Shown: piece after piece, positions 4,201 through 53,269 of the stretch
Numbering within the stretch: position 1 is the stretch's first letter
Layout of the letters: the number at the start of each line of letters is the position of its first letter
Origin: Thamnidium elegans
Lineage: Eukaryota > Mucoromycota > Mucoromycetes > Mucorales > Mucoraceae
DNA: 64,000 nucleotides
Direction: 5' to 3'
NCBI GenBank assembly: GCA_025201345.1
Contig: JAIXMG010000038.1
Span: 124,001-188,000, forward strand
Notes under the pieces: generated by a model
What the model saw: only the letters and a program-made list of their open reading frames with translations
Told to the model about the DNA's origin: nothing
The model's database searches: none
Made by a program: the position numbers and the translations under genes

Positions 4201-5102
4201 TGAACCAAGGAATCAAGCGCACTCTAATTATTAATATCATTTAGTTTCGATTTTTTTTTTTTTTTTATAAGAGCAAACTCATTTTACTTTTCTAACACGA
4301 GGATCACTATCTCTAGCATAATTACTAATGATTTTTTGAATTTCCATTTGCGTCATCATGGTCGGTTTATCTATAGCGCATCGATCGAGTACAAATGGTA
4401 GGATGGATAATAAGGATATACTGATAGCACGTACTTTATGATGTGCGTTCGATAGGTCGAGCGTAAGGTGCTCAAATAATGTCAAAATTTGTTGTTCAAT
4501 TATAATTTGGCGATTCTAATCATCATATTTTAGTAGTGCAATCAACGTAATCTAGTATACTTTACCTTTAAAATGCTGCCAATACAACTATAGACGTGCC
4601 ATTTAATCTTTGTTGAATCTGTTTGAAGCTATATATAATCTACTTAGCGAAAAAGGTACATATGTAATATATCAGTAGCTTTACCTCTTTTAAAAGATAT
4701 TGAAATACAGTAAATGCATTAATATTAGGAAATCGAGAACATTTTTCTATTAACAAAATCAGCATAGCCTATATACACATGTAAGTTATACATCAAAAAA
4801 AATAAATTAATGTTAAAAAAAGTTACTTTGGTGTCATTATCAGTTTCTTTTTGTAGTCTATAAATTAAAAGTTCGATAATATCTTTTTGTTGTTGAATAT
4901 TTAAAAGGGGTATATGACGAGCGATTAAAAGTAAACACTACAGCAAAAATAATTCTTTAATACTTTTTTCTACGTATATAAAAGTTTTTTTTTTGGGGGG
5001 GGGGAATTCAAACCTGTATACGATCGTCTACTTTACTAGACTCTAAAGCATTTAAACGTAACTGTTCAAATATTTATTAGTAATTATTTCTAGATCGTTT
5101 TA

Positions 5103-39957: not shown

Positions 39958-40746
39958 TTTTTTGTTGTTATTATTATTATAATATATATAAAAAAGTAAT
40001 AATAAAAAAGTCAAAAAAAAAAACAAGAGAAAGAAAGAAAGCTGGTTTACAGTTTGAGGAAGTACATCACAAAATTCAAAAGCGGGGTTTTATTATCAAT
40101 TTATATATTACCTCCTCTGTGTAACTTTAACCAGATGATCCGTGCAAAAATAGTGAATGTGTGTAATTTTACCGATAAGTTGTAACAACAAGTTGCATGA
40201 GCAAATAATCCCCCTAGTTTATCAATCTCTGTGTATATCAGCAAATATTACTTTTTACATGTGCGCACAAGAGCACTAGTTAAAAATGCTCACATGTGCT
40301 TCACCCGAAACAAATAAGCAGGATATCATCACTCTACAAGGCTTGTTTAAAGATCAACGTTATTGAGAACGCATCTTTGAACAACTAATTGGTACGATCG
40401 GCTAACAGTATCACTAACAAAGGGGGCATAGCAAGAAAATAAATCCGTCACACCAAGCACAAACTATAACATACCCAATGTTTAACGAAGCACAGGCTTC
40501 CGAGGTTTTTTTTTTTTTTTTTTTTTTTTTGTATGTAATTAAATTACACATGGTTTTTGACACTGTAAAAAAAAAGGTAGACCGATCATATGATTTGTTG
40601 TTATTACTTATATGATCTTCTAAAAAAAAGGGGAGTGTATGCGGAAAGGTATAAGGTATGTACAAGTGACTATGTTTTTATTGATGTACACAAACAAACT
40701 CGATAATTTATATCGTTTTTTCTTCTTCTTTTCTTTTATTTCTGTA
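39958..40746. other. Divergent intergenic region
   Basis: It separates the RhoGAP and MCFD2-like genes. No coding sequence is supported. It contains a poly-T run at 40506-40530. Confidence 0.4.
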
Positions 40747-41340
40747 ATGATGCGTACCCTTCTATTCGCGTTCAGCTGCTTATTTCTATTGCAAGTAGTG
40801 TCTGCAGGTCCTGGTACACACAGGTACAAGGAGCCTCACTCAAACTATGGTGATGAAAAGAAAAATAAACAGTAAGTGATATCACACCACTTTTTTTTTT
40901 TAAAAAAAAAATATACATATATATATATATATTGACGCGCGTTCAAATGCTTTTTATATAGACATATTCAGGAGCATATGAAGGCAATGACAAAAGATGA
41001 TAAAAGTACAGAAACACCCGAATTAAGTGAAAAAGACATGATTTATTATTTGTTCGTTATCCATGATATAAACGGCGATGGATATTTGGACGGACATGAG
41101 CTAAGAGCTGCATTTACTGATTTTGATCATGAAGATGGTCATACAGACGAAGAAAAAGAAGAATTGATTCCCTTAGATGAAGCAAATGATATGGTTGATC
41201 ACGTATTATTAGAAGACGATAAAAATGGAGAGTAGGTTTTTATTTGATTCTATTCATTTTTATTATTAAAACCTATTTTGTGTAGTGGCTTAATTTCATG
41301 GAGTGAATATCTCGAAAGTCAGTTGTATCACGACGATTAA
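40747..41340 (+). CDS. MCFD2: MCFD2-like secretory EF-hand protein
   Basis: Three exons start at MMRTLLFAFSCLFLLQVVSA, a signal peptide. Two EF-hands follow. EF1 is DINGDGYLDGHEL (41067-41103). EF2 is DDKNGDGLISWSEY, whose Asp codon is completed across the last intron (41235-41285). The insert between them is acidic. The order and spacing match MCFD2, the soluble partner of the lectin LMAN1/ERGIC-53 that helps load glycoproteins into COPII vesicles. The protein ends YHDD rather than a classical HDEL retention signal. A generic secreted calcium-binding protein is the alternative. Confidence 0.7.
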
Positions 41341-41928
41341 CTAGTTCATAACAAAATAGAGGTTATTCAGTTACACTGTTCTTTTTATTATTACTTGTGT
41401 AATCTTTAAAAAGGCATATAAATAAGCCACTACTTGTCCTACTTAATACACAATTGAATCAATTAAAACTTTTTTTTTCTTCTTATATATATATCATACA
41501 TGGAACACTTTTAATAAAAAAAAAATCGCTTAAAAGTAATTCAACGTGCCATTGTACAGTGTTATCTTAAAATACAAATACTTTTAAAAAAAACTACCCC
41601 TCTATCATCAACTTACTTTTTGGATCAGCTTAATTCAAGAGGAGCTTCTTTACCCCACATCAAAGATAAAATATCTTTCTTTGTGTGTATGCGCTTTTTT
41701 TTTTATCAAGTAATCAAGTAATATAATTTTCCTTTTTCTAGCAAGGCAAAAGAGCTAGTCTGCCCCCCCCCACACACACTATTGATTGGTTTCATCTCTT
41801 TCATGTCAATCTCGGTATCCAATTGAAACTTTTCAAGTGATATAAGCAGTCACTGGTCTTGTTAAGTATTCTCCTGAAGTAAATAAAAGTTTTTTTTTCT
41901 CTTTTTTTTTTTTTTTTTTCATTAGAAA
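41341..41928. other. Upstream region of the TYW1 gene
   Basis: No coding sequence is supported. C-rich and CA-rich runs lie at 41762-41780, and a T tract directly precedes the ATG. Confidence 0.4.
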
Positions 41929-42544
41929 ATGAGTAATTTCATAAATAGCTTGTTATACGGGTTTACCAACATATTATCTGTTGGACCTGAAGAACCTAAA
42001 GAAGGCGATTCTGCAGGATGTGGATCAGAACAAGGGTGTTGTAAAGATCAACCTAAAGTAAAGCAAGCCTGTCAAAATGAAGCAGCAGACGCTTGCTGTT
42101 CTTCTTCTTCTGAACCCAAGCAAAATACAGGCTGTTGCTCTTCTTCTTCTGAACCCAAGCAAGAGACCGGCTGTTGTAAAGACAATACAGTTAAATCAGA
42201 GACAAAGGATACTTGCTGTCAATCATCAGATACTGGAAAAGAAGCTTGTGCCTGTGAAGGAGAAAAGGAACCAGTTGTCATTGACCATTTAAAGATTATT
42301 TTTTCTACTTTAACTGGTACCGCTAAAACCATGGCATCAGAAATTGAAAACAAGATTCGACAAAATGATAGAGTTACTGTCAATAAGGTCGATATTATGG
42401 ATATTACTGAATATGATAATGATAATCTTTTACAAGAGACTGCTATTTGTGTCTTTATTTTATCTACATATAATGTAGAAGGTCCATTGGATTGGTAAAA
42501 CTGAATTTATAAATTATTCTGTTTTTGATGTGTAAGCGACTAAA

Positions 42545-42594
<50 letters not shown>

Positions 42595-44281
42595 CAGGTT
42601 CTCAAACTGGCTTCATGATCTTCGTTATGATTTCCGTGTAGATCGTGACGCTTTAAAAAAATTACGTTACTCCGTTTGTGGTTTAGGAGATTCAGCTTAC
42701 GGCGATGAGTTTAACGTAGCTGCCGCCAATATTGACAAGTGGTTAGGTAGATTAGGCGCCACACGTATTTATCCTTTAGGTGAATGTGATAAAAATGCAG
42801 ATCAAAAGGGTCAATTTGATACTTGGTCTAATGGATTTGTATCTGAGCTTGAAGATAAACAATGTTTAGAGTTTTCTCCTACTGACATTTCGTATCAATC
42901 TGATGAAGAAGAGGATGAGGCCTCCGGTGAAGAGAATGGCGAGATCGATATCGAAGGTTCTGGTGACGAAATGGTCGACCTTGAAGATATGGGTAATATG
43001 GCTAGTAAGATTAAGGCAGCTAAAGCTAGACGTGCCGAAGAAGAAGAGGATTACGAAAACAGTAAAGCCAAGGCTAAGCGTATGATTGGTGTAGATGATA
43101 ATAAGCCTAGAGAAAAAGCCAGTGCTCCTCAAGCTCGTGAGATGGTTTCTCCCATGATTATGAAGAACTTGACAAAGCAAGGTTATAAGGTGATTGGTAC
43201 TCACTCTGGAGTTAAAATCTGCAGATGGACTAAATCCGCATTGCGCGGCCGCGGTTTCTGTTATAAGCATGCTTTCTACGGTATTCAAAGTCATTTATGT
43301 ATGGAGACTACACCTTCTTTAGCTTGTGCAAACAAGTGTGTGTTCTGTTGGAGACATCATACTAACCCTGTTGGAACCACTTGGAGATGGAAGGTAGATG
43401 ATCCTCAGTTTATCTTGGACGGTGCTATGGAAAACCACTACAAGATGATTAAGCAGTTGAAGGGTGTCCCTGGCGTTAAAGCTGAACGTTTCCAAGAAGC
43501 TTTTACTATTAGACATTGTGCTCTTTCTCTTGTTGGCGAACCTATCTTTTACCCTCATATCAATGACTTTGTTACTATGTTACACAAAAAGAGAATATCT
43601 TCTTTCCTTGTCACTAACGCTCAATTCCCTGATAAGATTGCTGAAATGGTTCCTATCACTCAACTTTATGTTAGTGTAGATGCTGCTACCAAGGAAACCT
43701 TAAAGAAGATCGATCGTCCCTTGTTTAGAGATTTCTGGGAGAGATTCTTGAACTGTTTAGAACAATTGGCATTAAAGGGTCAACGTACTGTTTATCGTAT
43801 GACTTTAGTCAAGGGTCACAATACAGCTGAAATCGATGGCTATGTTGAATTGATCCGTCGTGGTAAACCTTCATTTATTGAAGTTAAGGGCGTTACCTAT
43901 TGTGGCTACAGCGGCGCAAGTGATTTAACTATGGCTAATGTACCTTTCCATGTCGAAGTTATTGATTTCTGTCAAAAGTTGGTTTCCAAATTAGGTGGTG
44001 ATTATGAAATCTCTGCAGAGCATGCTCATTCTTGTTCTCTTTTGATTGCTCATAAAGATTTCAAGGTAGATGGTGTATGGCATACACATATTGATTATAA
44101 CAAGTTCTTTGAACTTGTTGAGTCTGGTAAACCTTTCAATAGTTTGGATTATATGGCAAAGACTCCCGAGTGGGCTCTTCACGGCCATGAAGCTGCTGGT
44201 TTCGATCCTGAGGAGACTCGTTTCTATCGTAAGAACAGAAAGGTTGTTGCTGCACCCGAGAACCCTGATATCAATGCTTAA
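41929..44281 (+). CDS. TYW1: tRNA 4-demethylwyosine synthase (TYW1) with a Cys-rich N-terminus
   Basis: Two exons, 41929-42494 and 42598-44281, give 749 residues. Order: a short hydrophobic start, a Cys-rich segment (residues 28-110), a flavodoxin-like domain (IIFSTLTGTAKTMASEI, then CGLGDSAYGDEFN), an acidic linker, and the radical SAM domain. The [4Fe-4S] motif is CANKCVFCW, i.e. Cx3CxxC, with surrounding TTPSLACANK and RHHTNPVG. TYW1 condenses N1-methylguanosine-37 of tRNA-Phe with pyruvate carbons to build the wyosine ring, at the ER face or in the cytosol. The N-terminal segment includes two tandem CCSSSSEPKQ-T-GCC units and several further CC pairs. The intron contains a run of about 37 T followed by 12 A. 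Confidence 0.93.
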
Positions 44282-44468
44282 TTTTTTCTTTTTTCATATT
44301 TGTCTATTATTATTACGTTTTTTTTTTTTTATATATGTATATTCTCACTATTTTTTTTTAATGTATATCATTCTTGTATAATTTTTTTTTTATTAAAAAA
44401 AAAATCTCTTTTGCTCTATTATTTATACTTACTCTATTTTATTTTATTTTTGTAAAAATGAAATGCTC

Positions 44469-45530
44469 TTACATGCGAAGTGCTTTACGCGGTAAAATAG
44501 AAAGGATAGCTTCTACCAATCCATATCTAGTAGCAAACATAGCACCGAATGCAGTAGCGTATAATGCCAATCGATAACCACGTCCAATCTGAAATAATGT
44601 TTTAACTGCGAAAAATAAATAAATACAAAAGGTTTTTGCAACTCACAAAAAAAAAACTTACTTGGAGGAGGAGAAAAGAGATAATTCAAATTTAAACCTG
44701 ATTTTAAAGCGCAAACGTGTAAAATGGGAGAATGAAAGAAACTATAGATTGAAAAAGACAAGAGTGCCATATTTTTTGACGCGGGTAAAACCAAATATCT
44801 TCCACTGTAAATCATATACACAGGTGCTGCCAAAATTAAAATATGTTCTAAAAAAGAATGAATTAAAATAACGTCTTTTTTTTCTTTTTCTTTTTTATAT
44901 ACCTGCAAAAAAATTAAAGGTTTCTCCAACTAAATAATGGTCCCTTAAATCAGGAAAAGCCAAAGCACCGATAGCGCCCCATTGCGTATGTAAATAAATA
45001 TTAAATAGTAAATTGGTAACAATTGAACTCTTATTTGGGTTTGCTAAAGTGATCAACAGTAAAGCAGCACTCATATGACAAGGTTGAAGCATAAACAATT
45101 TATTTTTACGCATTACTTTATGTGTTGCGGTCAATCCAAACGATCCAAGTAATGAAGCAATCAAGATCTTTTCGGTATTTGTAGCTGGCCCAACTGGTTT
45201 AAACGAATTTAAGGCTTTCCAGGTGATACTGGAGGGATCGAGAATTTTGGTCAAGTAGTAATATGAGGCTGCCGAAAATCCGGTTGATAGGATTAAAAAT
45301 TCAATGCCATGTTGACGTGGGTGAAGGTACCTTATACAAACAAAACAAGTTATAAACCCCTACCAATATGTATATGTATATATATATATATATATATTAT
45401 ACCATGATCCCTTGGTTGAGTCTGTCCAATCGGTTTCTTCTGGCAAGTCTTTAGCAATGGATCGAATCCATTTTTCTAACCCATTGTATAAAGGTGTTAA
45501 AGGTTTATTAAGTACACTCAGTACAGCCAT
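44469..45530 (-). CDS. TMEM164: TMEM164 family multispanning membrane protein
   Basis: About four exons start at MAVLSVLNKPLTPLYNGLEK (45530). The family core is present: LHPRQHGIEFLIL, MLQPCHMSAALLL, then FLEHILILAAPVYMIYSGRY and FHSPILHVCALKSGLNLNYL, ending FSPPP. These match the TMEM164 N/QPCH motif and the region before its LNNMLCP block. The animal protein is an ER acyltransferase that places polyunsaturated chains on ether phospholipids. The fungal substrate is unknown. About six or seven hydrophobic helices are visible. The 5' end abuts the truncated relic gene at 45768-48662, so its promoter lies within or next to transposon-derived DNA. Confidence 0.75.
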
Positions 45531-48500
45531 GATACGAAAAGTTTTTAAAAGGAAGCAAAGAAAAAAATTTGAATGCCATGTTTCTTTTTTAATTATTTTC
45601 ACTGAGTTGTAAATCCATATAAACCCCAAAAAGAGGGTTAGTGAGGGTGATGGAGTAAAAACGTTAAATAACCCATAAAAATTCACAGTCACATCACTAT
45701 TTAATAGCTCGGATTTCGTCTTATTTTCACATTGATTGCAAACCTATGTTAAAGCAATTAATTTATAAATTCTCTATTTTATACCAATTGAATGATGTCC
45801 ACTTACTACAGAAGTTTGAAACTCATTGATGTCTATTAAACATAGCTCCCTGAGCCGTTCTCTTTGTCTTAGATCTTGATACACAAAAGAGGTAACACCA
45901 TGGAGATTACCTTTAAAGGGAACACCATATTTATATGAAACATTCAATTACCGAAGATTACCAAGGGCATTTTGGTTTTTTATCGCCTTCATTAAAATTG
46001 CTTTTTCGGCAAAGATTTCTATGTTCTTAGAAATGCAGGATATCATTAATACACGGTATATTATTTATCAATATTATTCAAGTAAAATTACCTGGTGGTC
46101 TAATTTTACAGAGTCAGTCAAATCTTGAAATATTTGCAACATTTCTTTCCGAAGCATTCCGACAAGCTTCAGCTTAAAGGATGACGGTTTCGCTAACAAC
46201 GACATTATTTCTTGCCTGAGTTAAAGTATTTTGCATAGTAGCAAATATATATTATAGAAGAACTATCAATTGACTGAATAGTTTCGGATGAATTAACAGA
46301 GTCGAGGATAGCAGTAGCTAATGTTTCTGAAAGATTTGTAACATTTGTAATACCCAATGATGCGGTATACATGAGTTCCTTTGTTCTACTTGATGAAACT
46401 AAGTTATAATTCATGTTGCCGGTAACATCAGTAATATTGGATGTGATAACTACTGAAGAGCGCAAAATGACATCTATATTTATATTGGAGTTGAATGACA
46501 CGACGTTTGGGGTCATTGATGTTCTCCGTATGTTTCTAATGCATGTAGTTAATAATAATTTTGAGTCTTCGTCTTCATGATGTGATTGAGACGCGACAAC
46601 AGCAGTTTCAATGGAATTTACAAGGACTCTCGTGCTATTGATTGTAGATTCTTCTGCTGCAACAGTTGCTTGTGTCCCTTGTAATAAGACTGTTCCTAGG
46701 CTTGATAACTTTATGTCGCCTGAAGGATGTTTTCGGAAACAGTTATATTAAATCTTTCTTGCAATTGTTCATATTCATTAATTATTTCGCGGAATAATGG
46801 TATTACCGAGCCTGGATTGCTTGAAATTCTTGCTTTAGTCTATGGATTACGTCTAATAGATATAGGCAATTTATCCTTTATATTATTAATCAGCGAGCCA
46901 TTATCTATAAAAATTCTCAATCTCATTCGAAATAGTTCATTTTCAATAATATCAAAATCATCTTCGTGAGGTTCTTCTGTGTTTGTAATTAAAAGTAATG
47001 CATAATCATTCACAATCCTTAGAATTTCAGGAAATTCTACAGATAATTTATAAATCAAATTACTTTCGTAATTTTCCTTTATATGTTTCTACATAGTAAT
47101 TGTTATATAATGTGCTTATAGTAACGCAAGCCGTAGAAAGATACACCGTATAACGAATTCAATAACCTTCAAGCAGACTTTGATTTTTGAGTCAGTGATA
47201 TCTGAATATCTTTTCTGTAAGTCTTTCTCGGAAATAGCATCGTCACCATTATTAAAAAGTATACCCTTTACTATGCTTTTCAAACTTTGTAGGGGTTTTA
47301 TAGAAACGTATTGTAGTAAACGATCATTCATATCATCATCGTCAGAAGAGTCAGTAGTTTATGGCGCCTTTTCGGAAATATCTGTATCAATAATAGCTAT
47401 ATCGTTTACTGAACTACTAAAAGAGGTCAATTCTAAGCTTAAACTTTCAGAAGTCTAATAAAATATGAATGTTAGCACAAAACTTTGTAATAATAATAAA
47501 GCTTACATACCAGAGCAGGACGAACAATTTTACTTTTAAAATATAAGATCCTTTGGTTGCAAGCAGAAATTTTGGCCTCTTTGTAATTGACATATGTCTA
47601 TACTTTCTTCTGGTATCTTTTAATGTTTCTTAACTCGCTTCGGATGGCATTTCTTCTTTGATTTCTAAAATTTACGCGAGAAGTCTTATCACATTCGTCT
47701 TCATTTCTTTTCCTGAATTATTTATAGTACTCTTTGGATATTTTAGAGGCTAAATTAATACTCAAAAGAGTGGATAAGAGATTGTTCATGGCTTTCATAA
47801 ATATTATCTCAAAGAGTTTATCAAAATCACTAACATATTCTGATGCGAGCAAACCGGTCGGAACCGTAAATGTAGATAAGGTTTGTTTACTATCTTCTTC
47901 CAAAAATTGTTTTGATAAAACGTTGTTAATTTTTAATAAAGGCGGATTTTTACAGCATAGTCCATCGTTTTGAACATCAAACATTATGTTTTTAAGGGCT
48001 GTCAGTGCGATATGAATGAATTTATCGAGTTCAATGGTGTGATCAGGAGCATTAATATTATTCTTATGGAACTTTGATTCAATAACAGATTTTAATTCCC
48101 CAGGCATGTCTTTTCTCATTATCTGGTTTACGCTAAAGGGAAAGTCCTATACACTTCTTCCTTTTTAGTAAGAATTTCTAAAGGTGCTACAGTCATTACT
48201 GGAGTTAAGAGAATACTTTCTAAAATTTTATTTAACAAACGAATTCTATGCAATATTACTCTTTATCGGCCGACGCTCAAGAAACAGGTGAGAATCTTTT
48301 GGAGCGCAGGAAGACATATCAGCGGCATTTGTTGCTACTCTTGAAGGAAGTTTTTTTATCAGTAGAACGCTTTTCTTTTAAAGCTTTTAATGATTCTTTT
48401 CTTTTCTCGATGCTCTTGTTATTTTTGATTATATTGTAATTTTTGTTTTTCAGAGTATCACGTATTGATTGAATAAAAATTTGCGAGTAGGGAAGCTTCA

Positions 48501-48662
48501 TCTGGTAGTTGTGAGCGAAGACGTTTATTGAAAGAATTAGGTGATTCCGCCTTATCCAAACGTCGTTTTTATAAGCTTCTACTAGAGGATATTATTATTA
48601 GTAACGCCGTTGCTTTGCCGTCACTCGTGCTTTTTTGAGCTGTTTTTCCCCTTATAATCATG
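45531..48662 (-). pseudogene. Decayed Fanzor/TnpB-like nuclease gene (3'-truncated relic)
   Basis: A long coding-like path runs on the minus strand from an ATG at about 48662 (MIIRGKTAQKSTSDGKATAL) to about 45720. It has at least three plausible GT-AG introns (near 47510-47458, 47130-47096, 46092-46032) and one more at 45814-45768. About 12 in-frame TAA/TAG and 2-3 TGA codons interrupt it, with at least three frameshifts. The last two exons read VSYKYGVPFKGNLHGVTSFV, then LIDINEFQTSV and, across an intron, VCNQC. This fits the TnpB/Fanzor C-terminal pattern in which a Glu-containing E(Y/F)xTS motif (RuvC-II) precedes a CxxC zinc finger. The second CxxC and the RuvC-III Asp are missing; the sequence runs into the TMEM164 promoter. 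The middle region (46200-48100) is not recognised. The Fanzor call is an inference from one motif block. Confidence 0.5.
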
Positions 48663-49286
48663 AATAATACTAACAGTAAATGAATTAATACATACGCTAC
48701 GACATTAACTACAATAAGAGCTTACCAAAATGCCTTACGAGTAGAAAAAAAAAATAGCTCAATTTGAAAGAAAGAGAAAAAGAAGTAAAAATGTTTAAAA
48801 TGTATAAAGAGACGAAGTCTCTGATTTATTAAAGCAAAAAACACGCAATTAAAAAATAAGTCATATTATTTTTGAAACTATAATTGCCTCTATTTAGAAC
48901 ATCTGGAGCTGGTTATTATAGTCAAGAAGAGAATCTTATGATACGTTAGAGGATCCGCAGCGGTGCACTTAAAATAGTCACTACATTAGATAAGTGATTC
49001 ATTATAAAATAAAATTTAAAAAATCACTATACCTAATGTGCACATTTCCTCGACTTTCTTTTTTCCTTTTCCAAATTTTAATAAACTTTACTTATCAAAT
49101 TAGCAAGATGGATACCGAGCATTCTTAGCAAAGTATTGCTTATACAATCTTTCATGTTCCCCTTCTCTATCGCGTTCGATGTAGATTTTTTCCTTCTACC
49201 TCTCTTTCCTTTCTCTCATTTCTCTCCTTTCTCTTCTTCAACGCAGAAAGTATAAGTGTATTGCGAGGGCTTGATAACACTCACAA
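48663..49286. other. Divergent spacer between two relic mobile genes
   Basis: It is AT-rich, with nothing clearly coding. A partly inverted pair of GTGCAC-ended blocks (48963-48968 and 49038-49043) flanks about 80 bp and may be a structured or terminal sequence. Confidence 0.3.
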
Positions 49287-49832
49287 TTGATTGTTTTATT
49301 TTTTGTCCGCTGCGAACTCATCGAAAAAAAGTCATTGGATTCATTGTCTGATGGAAAAATTAGTCACTTATTAAATGCAAATTTAAGTGCTCTTAATTTT
49401 TTTATATGCATTCATTTAATCATACAACATGTGATAGCAAATGTTGTAAAGTATATTGATGAACAATTACCACGATACCAACATACTATTAAGCCTTTCA
49501 AAAAAGATGGGTATAAGGTCATTGGTTACATTATAAGATCCCGACCAAAAGAAACAGATGAAGCACGCACAAAGTTGTTGAATATGATGTGCAAGAAACT
49601 AAAGACGAGCTCAATGATAGACACAATTTTCGTGTCTTTTAAAACAGACGCAAATGAGCCTATAATAGACAGGGGTATAGATGATGACAAGAAGGTATTG
49701 GAAGAAACCGATGCTGATGGAAATACACAAGGTAAAAACATTATAATAGGTAGTTTTTTACACACACACACCGCTAATGTTAAAGTTTCCAGATATGTTG
49801 AAATATGTCTGCTCAAAAAACATGTCTTGTGA
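49287..49832 (+). pseudogene. Serine-recombinase-like ORF (mobile-element protein, probably partial)
   Basis: The frame of 181 codons has a coding-like core from about 49440: HVIANVVKYIDEQLPRYQ, then GYKVIGYIIRSRPKETDEAR, KLLNMMCKKLK, IDTIFVSFKTDANEPIIDRG and NTQG. An apparent donor (GTAAAAAC) follows NTQG at about 49732. The order of a G-Y-x-R-x-S-like strand, a helix with regularly spaced Leu/Met, a second strand with FVS and a charged loop ending in Arg resembles the N-terminal catalytic fold of small serine recombinases such as IS607 TnpA. The candidate nucleophile would be the Ser in IIRSRP. This is a shape-level match, not a proven homology. It is divergent from the Fanzor-like relic, with about 620 bp between starts. 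Confidence 0.35.
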
Positions 49833-50572
49833 CATTAACTTTTGCAGGTTTCACGTAAGCTTGAAAATATGATTCAATGAAAATAAATAATTAACTAACA
49901 AGACTTAATAGCAACAATACCAATGTAGAGAAGATTGTTGTGGACAGCCTTTCCCATAGCAACAAGATAGCTTTATTTGATAGGAAGGAGCTACTCAACA
50001 ACCAATAGAAAATACAGCAATTCAAATGTAGAGTAGGCTTTGAGCAGAAATAAAGATATCGTTTAAGTCAGTTTCCTTGATAGGAAGGGAAAAGCTTTAT
50101 TTATAAGTGCTTTAAAAACATTAGATGTCAAGTAACGGTAAGTCTGATCCAAATCGAAAAGGATCATGTTCAAAATCTGTGAAAACCTCCGTTCCTTTGT
50201 GAATTCTGTGTGCTACATTTTGTCCAAAAATTTCCTATTATTGTTGAAGGGTACTGGTGATACTTTGGGTTAGCCCTCAAGGGAGCATATGATCGGCTTT
50301 GTTGGATCATCTGTATAACATATTTCGTAACGGACGAAATCGTCAACTTCTTTGGTTAATTTTTGAGCATTATCTTCCTTGTACTCTTCGCAAAAAAAAA
50401 AAAAAAAAATGCATATTGTTTGCTCTCTGGTAATGACATTTATGTTCAATAAAGAAATAAAGGAAAAGACAATCGAGAGAAAAAACAGCAAATGTTTTGT
50501 TACTTGAGAAAGACACAAAAGAAAAGACGAGGTCGAATGAGTGTGAAATATCATATACAAAGTCGACGACGA
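49833..50572. other. Stretch with minus-strand relic coding fragments
   Basis: Two minus-strand coding-like fragments are present. One is 50392-50270 (EEYKEDNAQKLTKEVDDFVR, then YEICYTDDPTKPIICSLEG and stop). The other is about 50170-50060 (MILFDLDQTYRYLTSNVFKA, LINKAFPFLSRKLT and stop). They may be exons of one decayed mobile-element gene. No family is recognised. Confidence 0.3.
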
Positions 50573-50714
50573 GATTTTAGTCTTAATTGGTACGGTTGTA
50601 TTTTTTTAAGTACCTTACAAAAGTAATTTGGTGCCGTATTCACCGCTTATTTCGTCTCAACCGTACCAAAAAGTATTACAGTTGTACCAAACCGTACCAA
50701 TTAAGACTAAAATC
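50573..50714. mobile_element. 142-bp MITE with perfect 23-bp ends
   Basis: The left end GATTTTAGTCTTAATTGGTA (continuing CGG) at 50573-50595 is matched in inverse at 50692-50714. A second inner pair, around CCGTACCAAAAA, also occurs. The centre is non-coding. The same end sequence appears once more at 61957-61979, next to the reverse transcriptase relic. Confidence 0.8.
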
Positions 50715-50841
50715 CTGTAACTTGTATTCGGACATTTAAAACGGAAGCTTCATTTGCAGTTGTTTTTGGAACAATGCAAAATAAAGCCAAAAAAAAAGTG
50801 TTTTCTTCTTTCTTCTTTTTATTCTTTTTCTTCTGCTTCAT

Positions 50842-51593
50842 ATGTTGTCAATTATATTGTTTTATCTGGTTGCATCAGTGTCATGCTTTCCATTTTCAAA
50901 TGTATTTCATATGGGTTGTTTAGAACCCATCGAACAAGAATTAAATATTGCACAGGGCTTAAAACCTGACTTATTAAATACTGCAACAAACTTTGGTAAC
51001 TTTTTTTTTTCTATCACACCTAAAAAATAAAATAAAAATGATTAATTAAAACATCGTTATTACAATTAGGATATGTATACCGCTTAGATACACCAACACT
51101 TCGATTAGGTCCTGATATTACAGTACTTGATATATCCGAGACTTATCCGCCTCAGGCAGCCGTCATTTTGTCTAGTATGTCATATAACGAATTTGATACA
51201 AGACTGGTATTGAGAGGTCAGATGAGTAAGCTTAATTGGTACCGAATTAACAGATTAGAGAGCTTGGAAGGTACTTTAATGACAATTCGGTTTGATACGT
51301 TTAGTTATAACAAGAAAGATACGTGGTATGCTAGGCTTGGTTCATCTCACGGAGGTATTACGGGTAGAATATCTAATTTTGATATTCAACAAGAGCAAGA
51401 CATTATGATTGAATTGGTACCTGAACCAAATACGTTTCATGATGAATATTTAGAATTTAAAACTGTACCTAATGGTAACGTAAAACGTATTGATTGGACT
51501 GCCTCTGGTAAACACGGGTGCAGAACCAATCGTCAAGTAAATAACAAAGTGGATCAATTTGATCAAGTATTTGATAGCGCTGTTTTGTTATAA
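50842..51593 (+). CDS. Secreted protein of unknown function
   Basis: Two exons, 50842-50995 and 51070-51593, give 225 residues. The N-terminus MLSIILFYLVASVSCFPFS is a signal peptide. The mature part has beta-strand-rich segments (YRLDTPTLRLGPDITVLDIS, FDTRLVLRGQMSKLNWYRIN, LMTIRFDTFSYNKKDTWYAR) and a Cys near the C-terminus (HGCRTNRQ). No family is recognised. The join is in phase 1 and gives FGYVYRLD. A (GA)n microsatellite lies right after the stop (51597-51620). Confidence 0.6.
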
Positions 51594-51596
51594 TAT

Positions 51597-51853
51597 AAGA
51601 GAGAGAGAGAGAGAGAGAGAGTTATGTGAATTATGCATAACACATATTCTCTTTAAAATTTTAATAACAATAATAATAAAAAAAAATATGTACATAAATA
51701 GACCGTGGCTTATTTATTGTGTAAACAATGCACCTTTTTCTACATGTTGTTGTACTCTATCAGCCCATTCCTCTCTCCCTCGGGGATGCGTACAAAAGAA
51801 AATGATAAACGAGTGAAATTTATTGGAGTTGTATGTAATATATATATATATAA
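51597..51853. other. Short intergenic region with a GA microsatellite
   Basis: A (GA)n run of about 24 bp at 51598-51621, then AT-rich 3' flanks of two converging genes. Confidence 0.6.
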
Positions 51854-53269
51854 TTAATAAGCTTTGGTATGAACAACAGAAGGACCTGATTCATTATAAT
51901 CTACTTTACTGATATAGTTCTTTGCATCAATGAATACAAGCTACAATAATAATAAATAAAAAAAAAACATATATTAGATGCTTAAACGAAATATACATAT
52001 ATCATTTTACCTTTGCTACAATTTCAGCACCTAACCAAGTAGAATATTGTTGATACTTTTTATCTTTAAGGACAGTAAAATAATCAGCAATTCTCAAAAA
52101 GCTTAATTGACGAGGTTGAGTATCTCCAGAATTCTCAGAATGAGGTAAGAACAATTGAACTTCGGTCTTTATACGTCTAGCTAATCCAAGGGTATTACAA
52201 CAACCACCAGTTATAGCAATATTCTCCCAAAGCTTAGGTCTGATCTCTGGTGGTTCACAATTCATGGCAGATAAACGCATAGTTTCAGGAAGTGAGGGGC
52301 TATCGATATTTACCAAATCGGGACTAAATAATGGATCCAATACATCATGACGGTAAGGACCAATATTAAACTTATGTCCTTTATATTCAATCTCTACAAC
52401 TTCAGGTACATCGCCTATTTCCTCCTCCTCTATTTTTTTAGGGTTCTGTTCATCGTCCAAGATTTCATCGACAATTTCAGATTCCTCCATGGCGTTTAAT
52501 AATTCAGCTGCCAACATATTGTCTGCTAATTCATGGCCAATAGATACGTTACAGATACCAGGTAATTCACGTACGTATCTTGCAAATTCGACATTTAATT
52601 CGACGTCTGGTAAACTTTCAAATTGTTGTACAAGTTTTGTGTCCTTTTTTAACAATTGAAGAAAGTAGTTGTCGAATACGTCTCCTGCAATAGGGATAGA
52701 AAATGTTGATTGCAATTGTATGTTACTATCCACGATAATATTGACATCTATTCTGGATGTTAGTTACATAATTACCCCTAGTATAAATACATACTTACCA
52801 GTAGTCTCACTACCAATATCAACAACAATACCAGATACGGTCCCGCATCCAAACAATGTCAATAAGGGTTGAGGAGCAATATAAACACCAGGCACATTAA
52901 AGTTCTCGAAAAAGATTTGAGTGATGCGTTCGTGGTCCAACTTGGTCCATTGCATTGGTACTGCAATTAAAACAGGGCTTTCGTTGCGAGACTTTTTAAT
53001 ACCAAGCTCTTTAAATAGAATATGATGCCAACATTCTTCAAGATCTTTCCAATTGACAATAACATTGTTTTTAATAGGATGGTTAAAGTCATCCATATTG
53101 ATAATCTAAGTTTTTATCGTTTTTAGTTGACTTTTTTTATTTATATTTTATAGACATTACTTACTATATTGGGTGGTTTATTGGTGTCGTGCATGCCAAT
53201 ACCTGCTGTGGTATACTTTGAACCTACATTGATTACTACAAAGTTTTCTTCTCTAAGCGCAATCGACAT
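51854..53269 (-). CDS. Actin-related protein, probably chromatin-remodeller type (Arp9-like)
   Basis: Four exons run from MSIALREENFVVINVGSKYT (53269) to a stop at 51854. The actin fold shows in NVGSKYTTAGIG (phosphate loop 1) and VLIAVPMQWTKLDHERITQI. It continues in GIVVDIGSETT (phosphate loop 2), IAITGGCCNTLGLARRIKTE (adenosine-side GG) and the terminal STWLGAEIVAK, equivalent to actin's SxWIGGSILA. A long acidic insert (EIVDEILDDEQNPKKIEEEE) between subdomains sets it apart from conventional actin. Fungal Arp7/Arp9-type proteins sit in SWI/SNF and RSC. The exact ARP class is uncertain. Confidence 0.65.

Follow-up and report, generated by a model that had tools for sequence, protein, structure and literature searches.

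Fanzor proteins are eukaryotic relatives of the RNA-guided DNA cutters of CRISPR type. Multi-exon Fanzor1 genes were described by Bao and Jurka in 2013 (PMC3627910, in the part consulted), from Mucor (10 families), Rhizopus (4) and Phycomyces (3); Fanzor1 in Tc/mariner-type carriers, which have TA as target site, is described there as well, and the Fanzor motif is given as D-X(125,275)-[TS][TS]-XX-C4 finger-X(5,50)-RD. Published Fanzor1 omega RNAs measure 75-150 nt, and the FRI insertion of PpFz1, which sits in RuvC, is reported only from Parasitella and Rhizopus in the consulted portion of PMC11423790. Here, a window of 64,000 nucleotides from Thamnidium elegans (C32:124001-188000 of its 34.1 Mb, 64-contig assembly, which was also the genome searched) was analyzed, in which an initial annotation had pointed out the relic of a Fanzor-like nuclease gene. 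This sighting was correct: the relic is a new, dead Fanzor1 member, and it adds to a described group, since Fanzor1 has been known from Mucor, Rhizopus and Phycomyces since 2013 (PMC3627910, same part). With a probability of about 95%, positions 47158-45715, on the minus strand, represent a dead, doubly truncated copy of an old-family Fanzor1 gene, probably once carried by a transposon.

Loci of the genome are indicated by L and database proteins by P; coordinates of L021-L040 follow the direction of the Fanzor gene, while the remaining loci are kept in their stored orientation. The features of the relic are the following:

46098..47158, minus strand: Fanzor1 relic, portion preceding RuvC-I, interrupted by several stops and frame changes (82-88% DNA identity to L033, L030 and L032; profile)
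46274..46705, minus strand: subfamily-specific insertion rich in V, S, T and A, upstream of RuvC-I (34% identical to that of L035, E=4.7e-7)
46084..46097, minus strand: internal deletion junction, where about 940 bp of L032, RuvC-I included, are missing (blastn breakpoints against L032 and L030)
45715..46058, minus strand: RuvC-II exon, intron and first zinc-finger half, with similarity stopping at 45715 (87.5% DNA identity to L029 over 344 bp; profile E=1.5e-11)
45822..45824, minus strand: RuvC-II Glu codon (INEFQTS), in the same alignment column as in the paralogues
45744..45806, minus strand: intron of 63 nt, GT..AG, between TSV and VCNQC (sequence; same position in L025, L029, L035 and others)
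45715..45743, minus strand: first CxxC (VCNQC) of the C4 finger, followed by neither the second pair nor RuvC-III (sequence and list of open reading frames)

The RuvC-II block, FKGNLHGVTSFV...LIDINEFQTSV, is held by a single frame (45947-45777), within an open reading frame (ORF, 45947-45774) reading ...FKGNLHGVTSFVYQDLRQRERLRELCLIDINEFQTSV; the intron follows, and VCNQC starts at 45743, exactly the succession that the annotation had described. A Fanzor profile was built from six other Fanzor readings of the same genome, excluding the window copy and its nearest relative, L029, and was compared with the 1929 window ORFs of at least 20 residues, reversed ORFs serving as control. The RuvC-II frame scored E=1.5e-11, while the next ORF and the best reversed ORF reached 0.94 and 0.71. 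A search of the genome with the 47-residue block produced 37 matches at E<=1, itself included, nine of the others being at E<=1.8e-8; identities for the best eight non-self matches ranged between 59% and 76%. Because 36 other places in the genome match at E<=1, and because of the separation of the profile scores, the match exceeds chance. The RuvC-II Glu ahead of the finger (INEFQTS-V, then VCNQC) is aligned with that of the paralogues, whose profile is in register with SpuFz1 at this residue. The Fanzor call held up, as did the intron, found at the same position in relatives, and the guess of a Mucorales-type genome.

Further upstream, a fungal Fanzor profile matches ORFs 47158-47063 (1.7e-7) and 46839-46714 (4.7e-5), and protein-level similarity starts at about 47158. 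As DNA, 47141-45715 aligns to L033, L030, L032 and L029, with 80-88% identity in the longer pieces.

The annotation had called the copy dead and had seen it end ahead of the second CxxC and RuvC-III; both statements hold: the Fanzor reading has stops in every frame, and the complete C4 finger and the RuvC-III Asp are missing, the copy not being among the 68 finger/RuvC-III places found in the genome (blended query, E<=0.001; a lower bound). The extent of the loss had been understated, since RuvC-I is missing as well: none of the 47 matches of a genome search for RuvC-I falls inside the window, and the copy lacks the RuvC-I Asp, with the deletion junction at about 46090. L032 and L030 break at this junction, while L033, which retains finger, RuvC-III and 3' block, aligns straight through it (85% over 240 bp). 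As the junction is shared, the deletion predates the split of L033 and the window copy, and the form without RuvC-I has been copied at least once. In both (L033 ~4540-4766, window 46220-45981), the upstream exon runs at the junction straight into a GTAATTTT splice donor, and splicing could therefore have survived the deletion; a second intron is likely at about 46090-46027.

The annotation had described an almost 3-kb coding path, 48662-45720. No such single path exists: the stretch contains stops and frame changes, and is a chimera, of which, by sequence comparison, only 47158-45715 is Fanzor. The other recognizable piece is

47514..48269, minus strand: remnant of a repeated non-Fanzor ORF of unknown function (tblastn to fetched loci; profile)

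which probably extends to about 47165, judging by eye from L042/L045. By tblastn against the fetched loci, 48269-47514 matches L042/L043 (E=2e-14 and 1.7e-11) and L044 (5e-6). A profile of P0016-P0021, hypothetical proteins from sources including Thamnidium and Blakeslea, matches ORF 48146-47721 at E=2.8e-10; segment 48120-47500, which had been suggested for a profile check, is not Fanzor. Pfam gave no match for the L044 or the window ORF of the family, and no significant match was obtained for 48662-48270 in the searches made. In L044 the repeated-family ORF is followed by a DDE_3 fragment that is clear (E=1.1e-17), and L046 has, on the other side of the ORF, another one recognized by reading alone as transposase-like.

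It is highly improbable that the whole of 48662-45720 is one decayed, collinear Fanzor gene with many introns, and this candidate was rejected. The two halves are contiguous on the same strand, and Fanzor N-termini are said to be highly variable in the consulted part of PMC3627910; however, the 5' part matches a different family, and among the loci searched it is found only in L042-L044 and not in the Fanzor copies L029-L036, so that the two pieces meet, among the loci examined, only in the window. Moreover, Fanzor copies have a different N-terminus with its own start, bearing in the young family described below a zinc-knuckle-like motif.

Twelve of the fetched copies belong to a young family, with about 96-99% identity in the long pieces. 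L021 and others read FLDPGRKNAY for RuvC-I, then DINEFRTSS for RuvC-II and VCPNCK for the first finger pair, separated by the same intron, and ICNDCNIFWNRD, which holds the second finger pair and RuvC-III. ORFs were read in seven copies (L021, L022, L024, L025, L038, L039, L040), and by eye the Fanzor gene of each is broken at least once. The copies end in GTGCATCTA termini, inverted and imperfect; TA lies next to the shared end at 8/8 left and 12/12 right ends listed. The 258-residue upstream ORF has no Pfam match. L021/L022 share host bases in their left flanks, and L024/L025 in their right flanks, outside the element, which may point to a segmental duplication or to copies having recombined. 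The N-terminal Fanzor exon of L025 (2941-3744) contains a zinc-knuckle-like motif, CKSCGQPGH...CPNH, similar in P0004 and P0005 and sub-threshold in Pfam (zf-CCHC_6, E=0.023).

A database search yielded 14 proteins at E<=0.001, 13 of them from Thamnidium, Mucor, Gilbertella and Benjaminiella. P0001, from T. elegans, covers 70% of the L025 reading with 100% identity; P0004 (Mucor flavus MFLAVUS_002581) and P0005 are 55% and 42% identical to it. Intact paralogues lacking the RuvC D-E-D residues had been named as what would contradict the family call; no contradiction arose, for P0004, P0005 and the young-family readings present DPG, INEFRTS, CxxC..CxxC and WNRD in order. Our own form of the PMC3627910 motif fits 3 of 23 sequences (P0004, P0005 and the L039 reading); in the remaining 20, which include many fragments and truncated gene models, one or more elements are missing. 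By fold, paralogues and relatives are Fanzor1, SpuFz1 being the best Foldseek match.

The insertion sets the old subfamily apart. In L035 it spans about 225 residues, following the N-terminal part and preceding the RLFSLFP motif; its search in the genome gave 7 matches at 6 loci, including L035 itself, L036, L030 and window 46705-46274, and L032 and L033 match the window across it. P0005, P0015 and the young family show a short linker at this site by eye, and P0004 is also without the insertion. The one relative recovered when proteins were searched with the L035 reading is P0015; as this lacks the insertion, the latter is known here from this genome alone. None was found outside it, but the absence is weak, since scoring was limited to the 7993 candidates that shared most words. 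No description of a ~225-residue insertion ahead of RuvC-I was met in the portions of the Fanzor1 literature consulted; since FRI lies within RuvC, the Thamnidium insertion occupies a different place.

Soon after the last Fanzor exon, a 53-nt block is common to L029, L032, L033, L034 and L035, with 68-91% identity over the ten pairs versus 18-50% in adjoining stretches (ungapped comparison, handicapping the flanks). Allowing up to 3 mismatches, the 21-base core of this block is present 9 times in 34 Mb, and the reversed control 0 times; eight of the nine share their strand with a finger/RuvC-III match and begin 0-57 nt downstream of it. The ninth, in L057, is a lone fragment, where only the 3'-end part matches Fanzor copies: 352-475 (C1:1035051-1035174) holds the conserved block and right end of the old subfamily, with no Fanzor coding match ahead. 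A covariance model, R1, recovered the copies it was trained on and, at 70.5 bits, one copy from outside the training set (L013); in seven young-family loci (L019-L021, L024, L025, L039, L040) it did not recover the block, and its best match in the window, 14.1 bits at 1585-1638, is distant from the relic. The conserved block is a concrete guide-RNA candidate for the Fanzor1 lineage. Against it, the core is absent from most of the 68 finger places and the covariation is no better than in shuffles (140/500), a single compensatory change (C-G to U-A, L034) not being significant. The 3' end of the young family visually resembles the block (GCCAC..GTGG), a resemblance that is unproven.

It is conceivable, although somewhat short of even odds, that the window copy belongs to a separate old Mucorales Fanzor1 lineage, combining the ~225-residue insertion, a compact guide-RNA scaffold, GCCAC(N7)GTGG, and a multiplied cleavage-dead form without RuvC-I.

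As for mobility, four right ends of the old subfamily share TTTTCTTTG(G/A)GAGTGTA, and exact copies of the AGTGCATCT/ACGTGCATCT end of the young family were found neither in L029-L036 nor in window 40001-52000. Several results weigh against the interpretation as a once mobile Fanzor1 copy. No convincing left end and no transposase were found for the old subfamily, so that its mobility is only suggested through the young sister family, whose own transposase call is sub-threshold (upstream ORFs, DDE_3 E=0.0072, 16.6 bits, cut-off 28.6). The window copy itself fails on the defining residues of the family, and its membership rests on descent. Pfam gave only E=0.12 on the RuvC-II piece and finger start, and neither the L039 nor the L035 reading matched TnpB in NCBIfam, hence the family call rests on profiles, PDB and fold; the P0005 model has middling confidence (predicted local distance difference test, pLDDT, 58.4).

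The relic is bounded by

44469..45530, minus strand: TMEM164 gene, first Met at 45530, probable 3' end from ORF 44642-44469 (PF14808)

as the annotation had proposed: PF14808 matches ORF 45359-44895 at E=2.8e-7, over its cut-off, and the similarity of the relic stops about 185 bp before the first Met. This proximity, together with the copying, at least once, of a form without RuvC-I, is all that speaks for a residual function, e.g. a transcribed regulatory RNA or a truncated protein competing for guide RNA, the chances of which are slim: the frame is repeatedly broken, RuvC-I and a complete finger are missing, the 3' block was not found at the relic, and no Rfam match lies within the window. 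The slimmest chance is left to another zinc-ribbon or Cas12/TnpB-type protein, considered because the finger/RuvC pattern is common to TnpB, Cas12 proteins and TranC.

The history of the dead Fanzor1 copy is best explained as follows. By analogy with solved Fanzor1 proteins, a working member would bind a short omega RNA from near the 3' end of its own gene and cut matching DNA through its RuvC D-E-D site; the window copy is capable of neither. Because L033 has the same junction, the window copy descends from a form already without RuvC-I, later losing RuvC-III, half of the zinc finger and the 3' end, while its frame broke. As the relic abuts an unrelated repeated-ORF remnant, the locus upstream of TMEM164 is a pile of mobile-element-like pieces. 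A short repeat at 49382-48948, whose ends are by eye inverted (CACTTAAA...TTTAAGTG), looks like a small non-autonomous DNA transposon; it is 76-90% similar, reversed, to a stretch downstream of the L037 Fanzor.

A second Fanzor-like family (L003, L005 and other PF07282 places) has a 270-residue open frame over the finger, with a RuvC-I Asp that is not obvious; the TNB profile gave 21 matches in the genome, 19 over its cut-off. By itself the relic is ordinary. It points to a genome with many Fanzor remains (at least 68 finger/RuvC-III places), to one recently amplified family, to a complete-looking relative in Mucor flavus, and to a conserved 3' block that may serve as a testable guide-RNA candidate for a new Fanzor1 lineage.

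Among known systems, Spizellomyces punctatus SpuFz1 (PDB 8gkh, 9ceu-9cez) is the best sequence match from RuvC-I to RuvC-III, C-terminal tail included (E=2.1e-12), and the best match by fold, although with about 15% identity in the fold alignment; unlike it, the window copy is without RuvC-I, half of the finger and RuvC-III. Parasitella parasitica PpFz1 (PDB 9cf0-9cf3) differs by its cyclophilin-binding FRI insertion in RuvC (PMC11423790, consulted portion), whereas the subfamily of the window carries another one, upstream of RuvC-I. The Fanzor1 genes of Mucor circinelloides, Rhizopus oryzae and Phycomyces share fungal order and multi-exon structure with the relic; the Mucorales elements of PMC3627910 are MuDr-like in the part consulted, whereas in the young Thamnidium family the ends are flanked by TA and the DDE_3 ORF is weak. 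P0004, from Mucor flavus, and P0005 are complete-looking, with the full D-E-C4-D pattern, and differ in having, by eye, no ~225-residue insertion and in being complete where the window copy is broken.
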